From: Desulfurococcales archaeon
GTDB taxonomy: Archaea; Thermoproteota; Thermoprotei_A; Sulfolobales; AG1
DNA length: 43,750 nt
Assembly: GCA_015521765.1 (NCBI GenBank)
Contig: WANO01000059.1
Coordinates: 1-43,750 of the forward strand
Direction of reading: 5' to 3'
Both the position numbers and the translations under genes were made by a program. How positions within the stretch are numbered: the first letter of the stretch is position 1; each line of letters begins with the position of its first letter. The notes under the pieces are model-generated. The model saw nothing but the letters and a program-made list of their open reading frames with translations, was not told the origin of the DNA and ran no database searches. Shown one piece after another: positions 3,817 through 34,792 of this stretch.

Positions 3817-3912
3817 AGTTTAAACAGATACATATTGCCTAATGTGCTTAGTGCGTGTAGCTTAGCTATATTTATCTATCCTCTTAAATTATTTAATTTC
3901 TAGGATGTGGAT

Positions 3913-4476
3913 ATGATAAGGGCTTTTATAGCTGTGGAGATCGAGGATAGCGATGTTCTTTCAAGGATAGTGAAGGTGAAGAACGAGATAGCCTCGTCTG
4001 GGGCTGATGTGAAGCCTGTTGAGGACGAGAATATACACCTCACCCTAAGGTTTCTTGGCGAGTTCCCTGAGTCGGATCTATCGATTGTCCAGGGCGTTAT
4101 GGAGGATCTTAAGCGGTTTAGAAACTTCAAGATGCATGTTAAGGGTGTGGGTGTTTTTCCAAGCATACTTAGGCCCCGTGTCGTCTGGGTTGGCGTGTCC
4201 GAAGGTACCGATCAGCTTAGAGCCATCAGGAGGGCGATTGATACAGGGCTTGTTGGTGGTAGATTCCATAGGGATCAGCATGAGTTCACCCCACACATAA
4301 CTCTGGCTAGGGTTAGGGGATCTAGAAATATAGATAAGCTGATCGATGTAGTAAACATGTTCAGAGACCACGACTTCGGGTGGTCCCCAGTAACTAGGGT
4401 TGTGCTGAAGAGAAGCACCCTAACCCCTAGAGGGCCTATATATAGCGATATCATGGGTGTCGATCTGATTGAGTGA
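3913..4476 (+). CDS. thpR: RNA 2',3'-cyclic phosphodiesterase (ThpR/LigT)
   Basis: Two HxT motifs: 'ENIHLTLRFLGE' and 'EFTPHITLARV'. Track start GTG 3907; ATG 3913 also possible. Confidence 0.88.
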   Translation: MIRAFIAVEIEDSDVLSRIVKVKNEIASSGADVKPVEDENIHLTLRFLGEFPESDLSIVQGVMEDLKRFRNFKMHVKGVGVFPSILRPRVVWVGVSEGTDQLRAIRRAIDTGLVGGRFHRDQHEFTPHITLARVRGSRNIDKLIDVVNMFRDHDFGWSPVTRVVLKRSTLTPRGPIYSDIMGVDLIE

Positions 4477-5884
4477 GAAGCTCAAAAAAATCATCGAAGA
4501 CGCTAAGCCTAGGCTTAGGCCTAGCAGCGATGAGGTTGAGCGCGGCAAAAAGGTCTATAGCCTGATCGAGTCGAGACTGAAGGAGGCTTTCAGAGACTAC
4601 GGCTTCGAGATAACCCTTCAAGGGTCTTTCGCTAAGGGAACGGCTTTATCGGGAGATCTGGATCTAGACGTCTTCGTGCTTATCCCGAAGGAATACGGGA
4701 AAAAGTGGATTAAGGAGAACTTCATCTCTATGGCTCTAGAAGCCGTCAGGGACCTCAACCCTGGGGTTAGGTATGCTGAGCACCCCTATATCAGGGTGAG
4801 TGTCGATGGTGTTGAGGCCGATATTGTTCCAGCATTGAAAGTTTCAAGGGGCTCCGAGGCTGAGACAGCTACGGATAGGACCCCTTACCACACAGAGTTT
4901 GTTTTGAGGCATATGGATGAGTCGCTTAGAGATGAGGTTAGGTTGCTGAAGAGATTTATGAAGGTCGCCAACGTTTATGGTGCTGAGGTGAGGGTTGGGG
5001 GCTTCTCAGGGTACCTGGTTGAGCTTCTAATCATCAAATACGGATCATTCATTAGGGTTGTGGAGGACGCAGCATACAGGTGGAGGATCCCTGTAGAAAT
5101 ATATTTGGAGGGGTACTCGGATGCGATGGAGGATATCAAGAACATATATAGGGATTCAGCTATGTTTTTCCCCGACCCCGTCGATCCAAAGAGAAACGTC
5201 GCCGCCGCTGTATCGAGGAAAACACTATCTAAATTCATTGTTGCCTCGAAGCTCTTCCTCGATGATCCAAGCGACTCCTACTTCTTTCCAAAAGAACCTG
5301 GGCTGGATGTGGGCTCCATAGAAAAGATCTACTGTAGCGGAAGCCAATGCACCTGTCCAGTTGGTGTAGTGGTTAGGCTCAACAGCAGTGAGTCGCCAGA
5401 CAACATATGGGGTGAGATCAAAAGGATCGCCAGAAGACTATACAGGTCTCTAGAATCAGAAGGCTATGAGCCCCTCAGATACGGCTTTTTCTGGAACGAG
5501 CAGGGGGATCTTGGATTGATATACGTGGAGTTTAGGGACTGCATGTTTAGAGATCGGAAAATAGTTACTGGCCCCCCAGCACACGCTAGAGACTCGCTCA
5601 GGTTCATTAAGAAGCAGCTTAGCGGTGGATACGGGTTCTGGATAGATGATAGCGGGAGGGTTAAGGGTTACAGGAGCTGGAGATATGGATCGGTAACTGA
5701 TCTTATAGAGGCTAAGAAGCATCTGTTCACGGGTAAAAACATATATGGTGTTGCCAAAGTGGTTACTGGAATTAGAGATCTAGCTAAACTATTCGGAGAT
5801 AGAAGCTATAGGGAGTGGCTTATAGAGGAGGTTCTTGGCATACCCAAATACCTCTGGGACAGGTTCCAGCAGACGCTAATGTAG
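4469..5884 (+). CDS. cca: Archaeal (class I) CCA-adding tRNA nucleotidyltransferase
   Basis: 'LQGSFAKGTALSGDLDLDVFV' nucleotidyltransferase motif plus archaeal CCA-enzyme architecture; TTG start overlapping the thpR stop. Confidence 0.9.
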   Translation: MSEKLKKIIEDAKPRLRPSSDEVERGKKVYSLIESRLKEAFRDYGFEITLQGSFAKGTALSGDLDLDVFVLIPKEYGKKWIKENFISMALEAVRDLNPGVRYAEHPYIRVSVDGVEADIVPALKVSRGSEAETATDRTPYHTEFVLRHMDESLRDEVRLLKRFMKVANVYGAEVRVGGFSGYLVELLIIKYGSFIRVVEDAAYRWRIPVEIYLEGYSDAMEDIKNIYRDSAMFFPDPVDPKRNVAAAVSRKTLSKFIVASKLFLDDPSDSYFFPKEPGLDVGSIEKIYCSGSQCTCPVGVVVRLNSSESPDNIWGEIKRIARRLYRSLESEGYEPLRYGFFWNEQGDLGLIYVEFRDCMFRDRKIVTGPPAHARDSLRFIKKQLSGGYGFWIDDSGRVKGYRSWRYGSVTDLIEAKKHLFTGKNIYGVAKVVTGIRDLAKLFGDRSYREWLIEEVLGIPKYLWDRFQQTLM

Positions 5885-19394: not shown

Positions 19395-19495
19395 GGGCCC
19401 GTCGCCTAGCCTGGATAGGGCGCCGGCCTTCTAAGCAGAACAAAAACGCTGCGCGGGAAAGCCGGTGGTCCGGGGTTCGAATCCCCGCGGGCCCG
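19395..19495 (+). tRNA. tRNA-Arg(UCU) with a 26-nt intron at canonical position 37/38
   Basis: Acceptor GGGCCCG/CGGGCCC, anticodon stem CCGGC/GCCGG, loop CTTCTAA (anticodon TCT), T-arm CGGGG-TTCGAAT-CCCCG; intron agcagaacaaaaacgctgcgcgggaa; CCA not encoded. Confidence 0.92.
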
Positions 19496-29253: not shown

Positions 29254-30306
29254 GTGTATGGTTTGTCTATAACCTACGGTGGTGAGGTTGGCCGTAGAAG
29301 CCTGATCTTTAGCTTCGGGGATATATTCGGTAGGATCTTCGGTAGAAGAAACACCGCAGTGAAGAGGGTATTGGAGAATGTACTCGCTGAATTGGAGATG
29401 AATAGCGATGTCATTGAGGAGGTTGCCCGAAAGCTCAGTAGGAGATATCAGGAGCTGCATACACAGGCTCTCAGAGCCGTTACCCAGAAGAATAATGCTA
29501 GGGCAACCATCTACGCTAATGAGATGACTGAGATAAAGAAGATCCTTAAGAGGTTAAAGGTGGCTTTGATATTTATAGAGCAGCTTAGACTGAGGATAGG
29601 GACCCTCAGCGAGCTAGATAAGGTGTCTCCATCGCTGGCCAACTTCCAGAAGTTGCTTGAGGTGCTTAAGCCGCAGATCGCACCCATAGTCCCCAACGTG
29701 GCTGTCTCGCTAGAGAGGGTTATGGCGGAGATAAACTCTCTTACGGGTGCGACGGCCTCTCCAGAACCTCAGGTTGTTGAGGAGATCAAGCCAGAGAGCA
29801 AGGAGGCTTCGGAGCTGCTTAAGCAGATAATCCTCGAGGCGGAGAAAAGCGTTAACGAGTCTCTCCCAGAGATGTTCCCGGAGCTGGCTAAGCATGTGTC
29901 TCTGAAGGAGGCCAACGATGACCTGGTTAACCTGCCTGATGACGTGTTCGCTGTTCAGACGGAGGTGCCCGCGGTTAAGCAGGGTCAAAGGATCGAGGAG
30001 AAGCAGAAGATTAAGCAGGAATCGGGATCTAGGCAGCAGGCGCAGAGGATTAAGATACCGCAGAGGGGTAGGGAGCAGAATAATAGGCAGGGGATAGCCG
30101 TGAAGGTTAAGGGTTCCGATATAGAGAAGGTGCTGATAGACTATATAACATCGAGAGGCGGGTTCCTGGATATAAATGACTTCATTAAGACCTACGGGTA
30201 CAGCAGGGAGGACGTTATGAACGCTCTGAACAAGTTGGCTAATAAGAAGATGGTTAATATAGTGAACTCCCCCTCACAGGATAATAGGAGTCTTGTCCCA
30301 GCTTAG
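29254..30306 (+). CDS. cdvB: CdvB, ESCRT-III (Snf7) homologue with C-terminal winged-helix
   Basis: Basic ESCRT-III-like helical core; C-terminal wH-like 'VLIDYITSRGGFLDINDFIKTYGYSREDVMNALNKLANKKMVNIV'. Start may be TTG 29263. Confidence 0.92.
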   Translation: MYGLSITYGGEVGRRSLIFSFGDIFGRIFGRRNTAVKRVLENVLAELEMNSDVIEEVARKLSRRYQELHTQALRAVTQKNNARATIYANEMTEIKKILKRLKVALIFIEQLRLRIGTLSELDKVSPSLANFQKLLEVLKPQIAPIVPNVAVSLERVMAEINSLTGATASPEPQVVEEIKPESKEASELLKQIILEAEKSVNESLPEMFPELAKHVSLKEANDDLVNLPDDVFAVQTEVPAVKQGQRIEEKQKIKQESGSRQQAQRIKIPQRGREQNNRQGIAVKVKGSDIEKVLIDYITSRGGFLDINDFIKTYGYSREDVMNALNKLANKKMVNIVNSPSQDNRSLVPA

Positions 30307-30389
30307 CACTGGATCGTGGTGTTTTCTAGATTAACCCAGTCTGCTCTTTGTGTTTCTCTGTGGGAGTCCTAATCTACCTAGCCCAATAG

Positions 30390-31553
30390 GTGGTCAGATT
30401 GTCTGGGTATGCGATAGCTATAATGGAGAGAATGGCTAAGGACTACGCCGATAAAGCCATCATGGCGGAGAGGCACGGCAAGTATGAGGAGGCGATCAAA
30501 AGCTATCGGAAGGCTGCGGATATTTTGAGAAAGATCCTTAGACTCGACCCATACAACAGGCTGAAGGAGACCTACATAGAGTTCATAAAGACATATGAAG
30601 ATAGAGCCAACTTCCTCGAGAAGAACCTAGAGAAGATCACGGTAAGCGACGAGAACCCCCATAAGGGTGGGGGTTCGACGGCTGACGTGGATATAAGTGA
30701 GTACATCAAAGAGCCGCCCAAAATAACCTTTGAGGATATAGTGGATCTCGAATCAGTCAAAAAGGAGCTCAAGAAATCCATCCTCTACCCGGTTAGGAGG
30801 CCTGACTTATTCATAAACAAGATCGGGTGGGCCAAGGGAATCCTCCTCTACGGCCCCCCAGGAAACGGTAAGACGATGCTCGCGGGGGCAGTAGCCAACG
30901 AGGTTAAGGGTGCGTTCATAACTGTTGATGCCGCAAACATAATGTCTAAGTGGCTTGGCGACGCCGAGAAGAACGTGCACAGGATCTTTGAGGCGGCAAG
31001 GACACTGGCCAGGCAGGGGACCCCCGTCATATTGTTTATAGACGAAGTTGACTCGCTTATGGGTGTTTTCTCAAGCGAGGTCGGTGGGGAGGTTAGGGTT
31101 AGGACACAGTTCCTTAAGGAGATGGATGGCATTCAGAGCAAGGGTGTTAGTGAGCTCATATTCGTTATTGGCGCCACCAACAAGCCCTGGGTTCTCGATC
31201 AGCCGTTCCTGAGGAGGTTTCAGAAAAGGATCTATGTACCCAACCCAAACAAGGAGGTGAGGAAGGCTATGTTTCAGCATTACCTGAGAAATATCAGGGT
31301 TGCTGAGGATATAGATCTCGATAAGCTGGCTGAGATCACCGAGGGCTACTCCTCCAGCGATATAGTCGATATAGTTAGGGAGGCCTACAACAGGGTTGTT
31401 GATGAGCTCTTCGAGAGCGGGATGATAGATGACGAGCCCAGACCCATAAGGTTTGATGATCTGTTGGAGGTTATAAAACATAGGAGGCCGAGCGTGTCGC
31501 CAGAGCTGATAAAGGCCTATGAGGACTGGGCAAGCAAGTTTGGAACGATATGA
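30390..31553 (+). CDS. cdvC: CdvC, Vps4-type AAA ATPase with MIT domain
   Basis: N-terminal MIT 'KDYADKAIMAERHGKYEEAIKSYRKAADIL'; Walker A 'LLYGPPGNGKTMLA'; Walker B 'VILFIDEVDSL'; arginine finger region 'PFLRRFQKRIYVPNP'. Confidence 0.97.
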   Translation: MVRLSGYAIAIMERMAKDYADKAIMAERHGKYEEAIKSYRKAADILRKILRLDPYNRLKETYIEFIKTYEDRANFLEKNLEKITVSDENPHKGGGSTADVDISEYIKEPPKITFEDIVDLESVKKELKKSILYPVRRPDLFINKIGWAKGILLYGPPGNGKTMLAGAVANEVKGAFITVDAANIMSKWLGDAEKNVHRIFEAARTLARQGTPVILFIDEVDSLMGVFSSEVGGEVRVRTQFLKEMDGIQSKGVSELIFVIGATNKPWVLDQPFLRRFQKRIYVPNPNKEVRKAMFQHYLRNIRVAEDIDLDKLAEITEGYSSSDIVDIVREAYNRVVDELFESGMIDDEPRPIRFDDLLEVIKHRRPSVSPELIKAYEDWASKFGTI

Positions 31554-31569: not shown

Positions 31570-32730
31570 CTATGTATGAATCTCTATAATGTCCCCATCC
31601 ATCAGAAGGTGATCCCCGCCAACACGCTCCCCAGGGTACTTGGCTGATGGCCCCCATATCTTTGCGTATTTGAATCCCCTATATAGATCTTTATGTATAA
31701 GCTTAGCCGCCTCAAGAACAGTTATCCTCCCCTTAACTATAAGAGGTTTTTTAGACACCTCCCCATTGGGTGGTTTAGTATATATCCTAACTATATTGAG
31801 CAGCTTAAACAACACATCCCCTAACCCATCTAGCCCCTCCCCCGTTAGTGCTGAGACACATAGAACTGGTATGTTGTTCCTGACCACCCTAGCTATCTTT
31901 TTGCAGTATGATCTGTCGGGATCCAGATCCAGCTTGTTGGCAACAACGATAGTCGGCTTATACATCACCACACCAAGGATCGATTCCTCGATATCGCTCA
32001 GGGTCACCTCCCCATAGATCTTTACATCAGCCTTATAGATCCTATAGGACTCCAGAAGCCTCCTAACATCATCGCTTGTACCGTCTAGAAGCTTTCCATA
32101 GTATATTACTCTAACACCTGGCGCATCCTGTGTTTTAGAGATCTCCACCATACCCCTAGGCCTAACCATCTTGATCCCCTCATTACTCAGCATCTCGGCT
32201 AGCTGCTTGAGCTGGAGGAGGGGGTTGTTTGATAGATCTACAACAACCATGATAGCATCAGCATTCCTGGCTAGCCCAATAACCCTTCTACTCCACACGT
32301 TTGATTCAGGCATTATGGAGGGTGTATCTATAAGCTGGAACTGGATATCCTGGTACTGAAGCATCCCCGGTTTAGGTAGCTTCGTTGAGAAAGGAATATC
32401 CGAGGGCTCAGCAGATGCGTTGGTAACCCTAGCCAGTATCGATGTCTTACCACTATTTGGGAGCCCAAGCATAACTATCTGTGCAGCTCCCTCCCTCTCG
32501 ATAAAGAACGAGGGACCTCCGGACCCCCGCTTCCTAGACTTTCTCTCCTCGATCTCCTCCTTGAGCTCCGCCATCCTCCTTTTAGCCCAGTACAGGAGGC
32601 CCTCCGTTCCCTTGTGTTTAGGTACAGCCGATATGAACTCCTTTAATGCCTGGAGCTTCTCTTCGGGGGTTCTGGCCTCCTGATACTTAGCGAATTTGGC
32701 TTTGGCTTCTTGAGGCAGGTTGGTTACCAT
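31570..32730 (-). CDS. DRG/Obg-type GTPase with C-terminal TGS domain
   Basis: 'IVMLGLPNSGKTSILARVTNA', 'LIDTPSIMPES', 'VVANKLDLDP', TGS 'LIVKGRITVLEAAKLIHKDLYRGFKYAKIWGPSAKYPGERVGGDHLLMDGDIIEIHT'. Confidence 0.9.
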   Translation of the reverse strand: MVTNLPQEAKAKFAKYQEARTPEEKLQALKEFISAVPKHKGTEGLLYWAKRRMAELKEEIEERKSRKRGSGGPSFFIEREGAAQIVMLGLPNSGKTSILARVTNASAEPSDIPFSTKLPKPGMLQYQDIQFQLIDTPSIMPESNVWSRRVIGLARNADAIMVVVDLSNNPLLQLKQLAEMLSNEGIKMVRPRGMVEISKTQDAPGVRVIYYGKLLDGTSDDVRRLLESYRIYKADVKIYGEVTLSDIEESILGVVMYKPTIVVANKLDLDPDRSYCKKIARVVRNNIPVLCVSALTGEGLDGLGDVLFKLLNIVRIYTKPPNGEVSKKPLIVKGRITVLEAAKLIHKDLYRGFKYAKIWGPSAKYPGERVGGDHLLMDGDIIEIHT

Positions 32731-32882: not shown

Positions 32883-33812
32883 ATGGCTGGTGAAGGTGAG
32901 GTAAGAAATATAGTCACTACAGAGCCCAGCTCGACAGAGATGGTTGCGTATCTAGACCAGAGTGTTGAGAGAATAGTTGGCGTGAGTGATAAATGCGATT
33001 ACCCCGTGGAGGTTATATCTAAACCCAAGGTTGTGAGAAGCCTGGTTGATATATCGGAGGATATGTCCTCTAGGGAGATTGATCGTGTAATAAGCATGTA
33101 TAAAAGATCCGGAAAACCCCTGTTCGAGATTGATTGGGACCTCATATATAGGCTGGACCCAGACCTAATAGTAGGGCAGACGCTATGCGATGTATGTGCG
33201 TTCCCCCTAAAAACAGGTTTAGGCGCTCCCGCTAGAGGGGCGTACACGATAAATAGGTTTAGGGTTATTAGGGTCGCCGAGTACAGCCCCCACAGCTTTA
33301 TGGCTATAGCTACTGAAGCGATTAGGTTATCAAGGATCATAGATAGAGTATCCAGAGCTGAGAGCCTATACCATGAATTCAAGAGAATCTATGATGAGCT
33401 GGAGGGGCTCGGTAGGGGAGTTAAAACAGCAGTTATTGAGTGGATAGATCCTCTCTACGCTGCTGGCCATTGAGTAAGCGATCTTGTTGAGAGATCGGGA
33501 TCCAGATCCCTACTCCCAGCAGGAGAGCCGGGGAGAAGAATAGACAATGAAACCCTGGTGAAATTTGATCCCGATATTATAGTTGTGGCTCCATGCGGGT
33601 TTGGTATTGAGAGGTCCCTCAGAGAGATCGATATCCTCACACATAAACCATGGTGGAGAAAGCTTAGGGCGGCTAGAAAAGGCAACATATACGTTGTTGA
33701 CTCGGCATATACGGCTAGACCATCACCTAGAACAGCTAGATTTGCGGAGTTCCTGATCGATATATACACAGGGTCCCAACCCTCAAGCGAAATCGCTGTG
33801 AAGCTCGAGTAG
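32883..33812 (+). CDS. BtuF-like cobalamin/substrate-binding protein interrupted by an in-frame TGA (33471-33473)
   Basis: Both ORF-track pieces (32883..33473 and 33558..33812) are in one frame; read through, they give 'AVIEWIDPLYAAGH[TGA]VSDLVERSGSRSLLPAGEPGRRIDNETLVKFDPDIIVVAPCGFGIERSL...'. Confidence 0.8.
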
Positions 33813-33823
33813 CTGGGTGAAGG

Positions 33824-34792
33824 ATGATACTGAATATAGACATACATACAGCCCTGAACCTCCTTATAGAGAGAGTGAAGGATGTATTTGAGAGGTATAG
33901 ATGTGACTGCATACTCCTGAGTGCTGGTATAGATACATCTTTTCTCGCAACAGTAGCTGTGAGAGAGCTTAGGCATAGGCTAACCGGTATAGTGGCGCTC
34001 TACAGCAGGGGGGTCCCCAAAGATATTTATTGGTCTAATGCTGTTTCTAGGGTTCTCGGCGTAGATCTATATGCACATATCTTTACAGATACAGAAGCCC
34101 TCGATGCCACAGACAAGGTTGTCTCCATCCTAAAGACTTTTGATCCTATGGAGGTCAGGAACGACATAACTATAGCGATAAGCCTCAGAAAGGCCAGGGA
34201 GCTGGGGTGTAGATGCATCTATACAGGAGACGCGGGAGACGAGCTCTTCGCTGGATACAGCTATATGGCGGGCATGACGTATGGTGAGTTGAGCAGGTAT
34301 ATAAGTGATCTAGCCACATATATGGAGTTCTCATCCCATGCTCTAGACAGCTATTTCGGTGTGGAGGTTGTCTCTCCATACAGCGAGGAGGGTGTCAGGG
34401 ACCTCGCTCTCGAGCTCCCTCCATACTGCAGGATCCCTATAGATGATCCTAGAAGACTGAACAAGTACATACTGAGGATATACCTCGAGAAACAGAACAT
34501 ACCCACATACATTAGAGAGAAGAACCCGATTGAGTATGGATCTAGCTCCACAATGGTTGCTAGACTCTGGGAATCGATGGTTAGAGATGAGGACATGGAG
34601 ATTGTATCAAGATACTTCAGGCCTAGATCTAGGGAGCAAGCCTATCTACTGAAGCGATACCTTGAGCTCGTTGGCTGGGAGGAGTACAGTGATGTAGCCC
34701 GAGACAAGCCTAGGTGCAGGTACTGCGGGGCACCCTTACTGAGGCCCAGAAGCAGATACTGCAGGAGATGCGGCTCCTATCCGGCTATATAG
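33824..34792 (+). CDS. Stand-alone asparagine-synthase-like ATP-pyrophosphatase domain protein with C-terminal zinc ribbon
   Basis: PP-loop 'CILLSAGIDTSFLA', 'IYTGDAGDELFAGYSYM', C-terminal 'CRYCGAPLLRPRSRYCRRCG'; no N-terminal glutaminase. Confidence 0.8.
   Translation: MILNIDIHTALNLLIERVKDVFERYRCDCILLSAGIDTSFLATVAVRELRHRLTGIVALYSRGVPKDIYWSNAVSRVLGVDLYAHIFTDTEALDATDKVVSILKTFDPMEVRNDITIAISLRKARELGCRCIYTGDAGDELFAGYSYMAGMTYGELSRYISDLATYMEFSSHALDSYFGVEVVSPYSEEGVRDLALELPPYCRIPIDDPRRLNKYILRIYLEKQNIPTYIREKNPIEYGSSSTMVARLWESMVRDEDMEIVSRYFRPRSREQAYLLKRYLELVGWEEYSDVARDKPRCRYCGAPLLRPRSRYCRRCGSYPAI

Follow-up and report, generated by a model that had tools for sequence, protein, structure and literature searches.

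An in-frame TGA at an invariant tryptophan codon interrupts a BtuF-like gene in a Desulfurococcales metagenome bin

A BtuF-like binding-protein gene in a metagenome bin of an uncultured, thermophilic Desulfurococcales archaeon is interrupted by a single TGA at a codon that specifies Trp in every relative aligned, and the most likely reading is that a TGG-to-TGA nonsense substitution has produced a real loss-of-function allele, recent or confined to the strain. Because relatives carry the gene intact and the genome uses TGA normally, the interruption almost certainly reflects either a recent mutation of an ordinary kind or an error in the consensus, and not a new reading of the code. The window, that is, the whole stretch of DNA analyzed, is a complete contig of 43,750 bases from the bin (G000; 1.23 Mb, 76 contigs, 64% complete). 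Within it, the gene runs on the forward strand from an ATG at 32883 to a terminal TAG at 33810–33812 (309 codons), and the TGA at codon 197 is the sole stop inside this frame, at the coordinates that a preceding sequence-only reading had given. The gene and its neighbors, with the corresponding features of a sister genome of the same genus (G001), are arranged as follows.

31570–32730, minus strand: DRG-type GTPase (MMR_HSR1 and TGS domains), upstream and divergent, intact; the same neighbor occurs in G001 (98.6% identity; 217 aa available for comparison)
32883–33470, plus strand: N-terminal 196 codons of the BtuF-like gene (Peripla_BP_2, no signal peptide), from translation, 91% identity to the sister protein (L004) and the PF01497 match
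33471–33473, plus strand: in-frame TGA at the invariant Trp, codon 197 (Trp in 7 of 7 aligned relatives)
33474–33812, plus strand: last 112 codons and terminal TAG, C-terminal lobe, still under purifying selection (dN 0.032, dS 0.227 against G001; PF01497 match across the TGA)
33824–34792, plus strand: asparagine-synthase-like ATP pyrophosphatase (PF00733), next gene, intact; the same neighbor occurs in G001 (95.7% identity)

The ATP pyrophosphatase (322 aa) begins 11 bases past the BtuF-like gene and carries a C-terminal Cys-rich CxxC...CxxC ribbon; its pairing with the BtuF-like gene is kept in G001, but the flank sampled in G002, a genome of the same family, did not show it. Farther upstream, window positions 29254–31553 hold an ESCRT/Cdv-like pair in which a Snf7-like protein precedes a Vps4-type AAA ATPase bearing an MIT domain. 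Such a pair is expected for archaeal cell division genes.

The two halves on either side of the TGA are, by sequence comparison, one BtuF-like protein, as originally proposed. Specifically, 282 of 309 residues are identical to the uninterrupted sister homologue, and a match to the Peripla_BP_2 profile (PF01497) spans the TGA, covering profile positions 1–234 of 235 with 40.3 bits; this exceeds the curated cut-off of 27.5 bits, which places the window protein in the family, and the sister protein itself scores 37 bits. An open reading frame encoding both lobes is present in G001 and G002, whereas that of the window is broken at codon 197, such that the product expected under standard decoding is the 196 N-terminal codons. 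The frame beyond the TGA is more than a chance opening, because it remains codon-periodic and selected for 112 further codons. A split into two separate genes was considered and rejected; the first in-frame downstream start is a GTG near codon 226, which would yield only ~84 residues and a single lobe. The window protein, which lacks a signal peptide, resembles the ~310-aa form of BtuF-like/COG0614 proteins (PF01497) that likewise has none, with 30–33% similarity over the whole length to proteins of Haloferax, Qipengyuania, Cyanobacterium, and Embleya, and with the common motifs GHW/GNW, EW.(D/E)PL, CDVCA, and PCG. These relatives are annotated as 'cobalamin-binding protein' or 'ABC transporter substrate-binding protein', and the ligand is putative, being taken from such annotation. 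The window gene differs from them in having TGA in place of the invariant Trp codon, a difference confined to this MAG.

The sequence-only reading had predicted that the TGA occupies a conserved Trp position and had called for alignment with BtuF homologues from relatives, which bore out the prediction. The sister contig (JALXCO010000151, a Desulfurococcales MAG) aligns with the window at 93% identity over 5.9 kb with synteny kept, and its gene (L004/L023; 91% identity) is uninterrupted with Trp at the site. G001 is the only other genome of the genus in the sample; in G002, the same-family gene (L005, 54–55% identity) is also uninterrupted and has Trp. The same residue occurs in five of five distant, plasmid-encoded bacterial and haloarchaeal proteins from Embleya, Haloferax, Qipengyuania, Cyanobacterium, and Alicyclobacillus (~29–33% identity), where it falls in the GHW/GNW motif. 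Across the phylum sample, a strong homologue was found in 57 of 250 genomes, and an internal TGA in the window MAG only. Because the relatives are open with Trp and no other homologue has the TGA, the ancestor carried Trp and the interruption is private to the window MAG. One distant phylum homologue (G154:C25:123552-124391) contains a single in-frame TAG.

Selection was evaluated against the sister gene on each side of the stop. Upstream of the TGA, dN is 0.042 and dS 0.230 (dN/dS 0.18); downstream, the corresponding values are 0.032 and 0.227 (dN/dS ~0.14), the 112 codons differing from the sister by 15 synonymous and 8 non-synonymous changes, in keeping with the earlier impression that the C-terminal half is under protein constraint. 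Both ratios are comparable with those of intact neighbor genes (0.02 to 0.18), and by these substitution patterns purifying selection is equal on the two sides. When G002 served as the outgroup, the window lineage could be assigned two amino-acid changes upstream of the TGA; downstream, no resolvable change besides the TGA itself falls on that lineage, and seven are of ambiguous lineage. Had the frame been drifting freely for most of the lineage, tens of changes would be expected (taking about half of the dS of 0.23 and roughly 250 non-synonymous sites), whereas eight are observed with both lineages summed. Therefore, the TGA is young, or absent from the organism, or read through. Insofar as selection is equally purifying on either side, the change would be very recent or not real, although downstream constraint is also what readthrough would give.

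For the preferred reading, a single TGG-to-TGA substitution would have struck codon 197 of an otherwise intact, cytoplasmic BtuF-like (COG0614/Peripla_BP_2) binding-protein gene. Under the standard code, the protein would end at residue 196 of 309 and lack one of the two lobes of its binding fold, the C-terminal one, probably making the allele null; the event would be too recent, or too confined to the strain, for the downstream frame to have decayed. We infer that the organism does carry the TGA base and that the shortened protein is non-functional. A second isolated stop in the bin, a TAA at a Glu codon of the sister near the N-terminus of L100 (G000:C27:10852, minus strand), indicates that private stops of other kinds occur there; in that case an ATG a few residues downstream of the TAA may rescue the gene as a start. 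The alternative that the TGA is a sequencing or consensus error, such that the organism has a Trp codon and an intact gene, is a substantial possibility, albeit the less probable of the two. The fragmentary and incomplete nature of the bin favors such an error, as do the restriction of the TGA to this MAG, the lack of any sign of relaxed selection on the gene, and the fact that a one-base transition suffices. However, consensus quality is not visibly poor; sampled G000 sequence compared with 308 G001 ORFs revealed no frameshift-like breaks, and the scan found nothing in either of the sampled genomes. As a positive control, two deletions were introduced, of which the one that was testable was caught and the other lay at a sister contig end.

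The remaining explanations invoke decoding of the TGA, and are of much lower probability. Site-specific UGA readthrough, in which tRNA-Trp(CCA) or another near-cognate tRNA acts part-time to give full-length protein, is consistent with the constrained downstream frame and with the identity of the lost residue, since near-cognate reading could restore Trp; the constraint is, however, explained equally by a recent mutation or a consensus error. Programmed readthrough is characterized by a conserved stop and a stimulatory downstream structure, but the TGA is conserved in no relative of the phylum sample, genus, or family, and the 120 bases from the TGA onward do not fold unusually (z –1.1; equaled or surpassed by 26 of 200 shuffles) and contain no Rfam family at or after the TGA. 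In addition, the only demonstrated cases of stop-codon readthrough in archaea concern selenocysteine and pyrrolysine (PMC8211752, PMC8037382). Site-specific readthrough is thus very unlikely, and the narrower proposal that a leaky UGA is decoded as Trp, yielding full-length BtuF-like protein despite a newly acquired stop, is marginally less likely still. Least credible of all is that UGA is read as selenocysteine, or as Trp throughout the genome, for which the in-frame TGA is the only indication. The homologues have Trp and not Cys at the site, no tRNA-Sec was found above cut-off genome-wide, and genome-wide SelB matches fell below cut-off and resemble ordinary translational GTPases (the genome being 64% complete); selenocysteine was rejected on these grounds. 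A genome-wide Trp assignment would entail loss of TGA as terminator and many genes with in-frame TGA at Trp codons; instead, in ~829 kb of the 1.23 Mb bin, sampled as stretches and compared with parts of G001, TGA terminates 39 of 140 orthologous ORFs, and 36 of these 39 also end in TGA in G001 among ORFs ending together. These conserved terminators rule out genome-wide reassignment. The further TGA-at-Trp genes that the sequence-only reading suggested seeking did not emerge, with no second case having solid homology on each flank in this sampled sequence (~54,700 aa aligned to G001 and ~50,000 aa to G002). One candidate, a TGA opposite a sister-frame Trp at window positions 4466–4476, was rejected as two overlapping genes in different frames (3907–4476, and 4469–5884 with a TTG start at 4469). 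Among the tRNA genes found in ~829 kb of the 64% complete genome there was no UCA anticodon; tRNA-Trp itself was likewise absent from them, so that at this completeness the negative carries little weight. Overall, of the options first put forward, nonsense mutation and sequencing error stand, genome-wide UGA as Trp is excluded, a selenocysteine system was not found, and specific readthrough drew no positive evidence.

Two apparent suppressor tRNAs called by ARAGORN were also set aside: by eye, 'tRNA-Pyl (cta)' (L066, G000:C74:417-511) is an intron-bearing tRNA-Arg(CCT), and 'tRNA-Stop (tta)' (L064, G000:C66:564-675, minus strand) is an intron-bearing tRNA-Lys(TTT). Such miscalls of intron-bearing tRNAs are a trap for suppressor-tRNA claims in archaeal MAGs. 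A tRNA-Arg(TCT) with a 26-base intron, at window positions 19395–19495, was found by Rfam and overlooked by the default ARAGORN scan.

The fucA1 gene of Sulfolobus solfataricus (PMC8211752) provides a partial parallel, in that one thermophilic archaeon carries a disrupted copy of a gene that is intact in its relatives; fucA1, however, depends on an experimentally shown –1 frameshift, whereas the window gene has an in-frame stop and no recoding evidence. The only cases of stop-codon readthrough listed in a review of recoding in archaea are selenocysteine and pyrrolysine, alongside the –1 frameshift of the fucosidase gene (PMC8211752). Only with a full-length BtuF-like protein in evidence would the case matter, since archaeal readthrough inserting a standard amino acid is undemonstrated according to that review (PMC8211752). 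If the TGA is real, as we consider most likely, a gene that parts of the phylum conserve would have newly acquired a loss-of-function allele, a case of ordinary microevolution.
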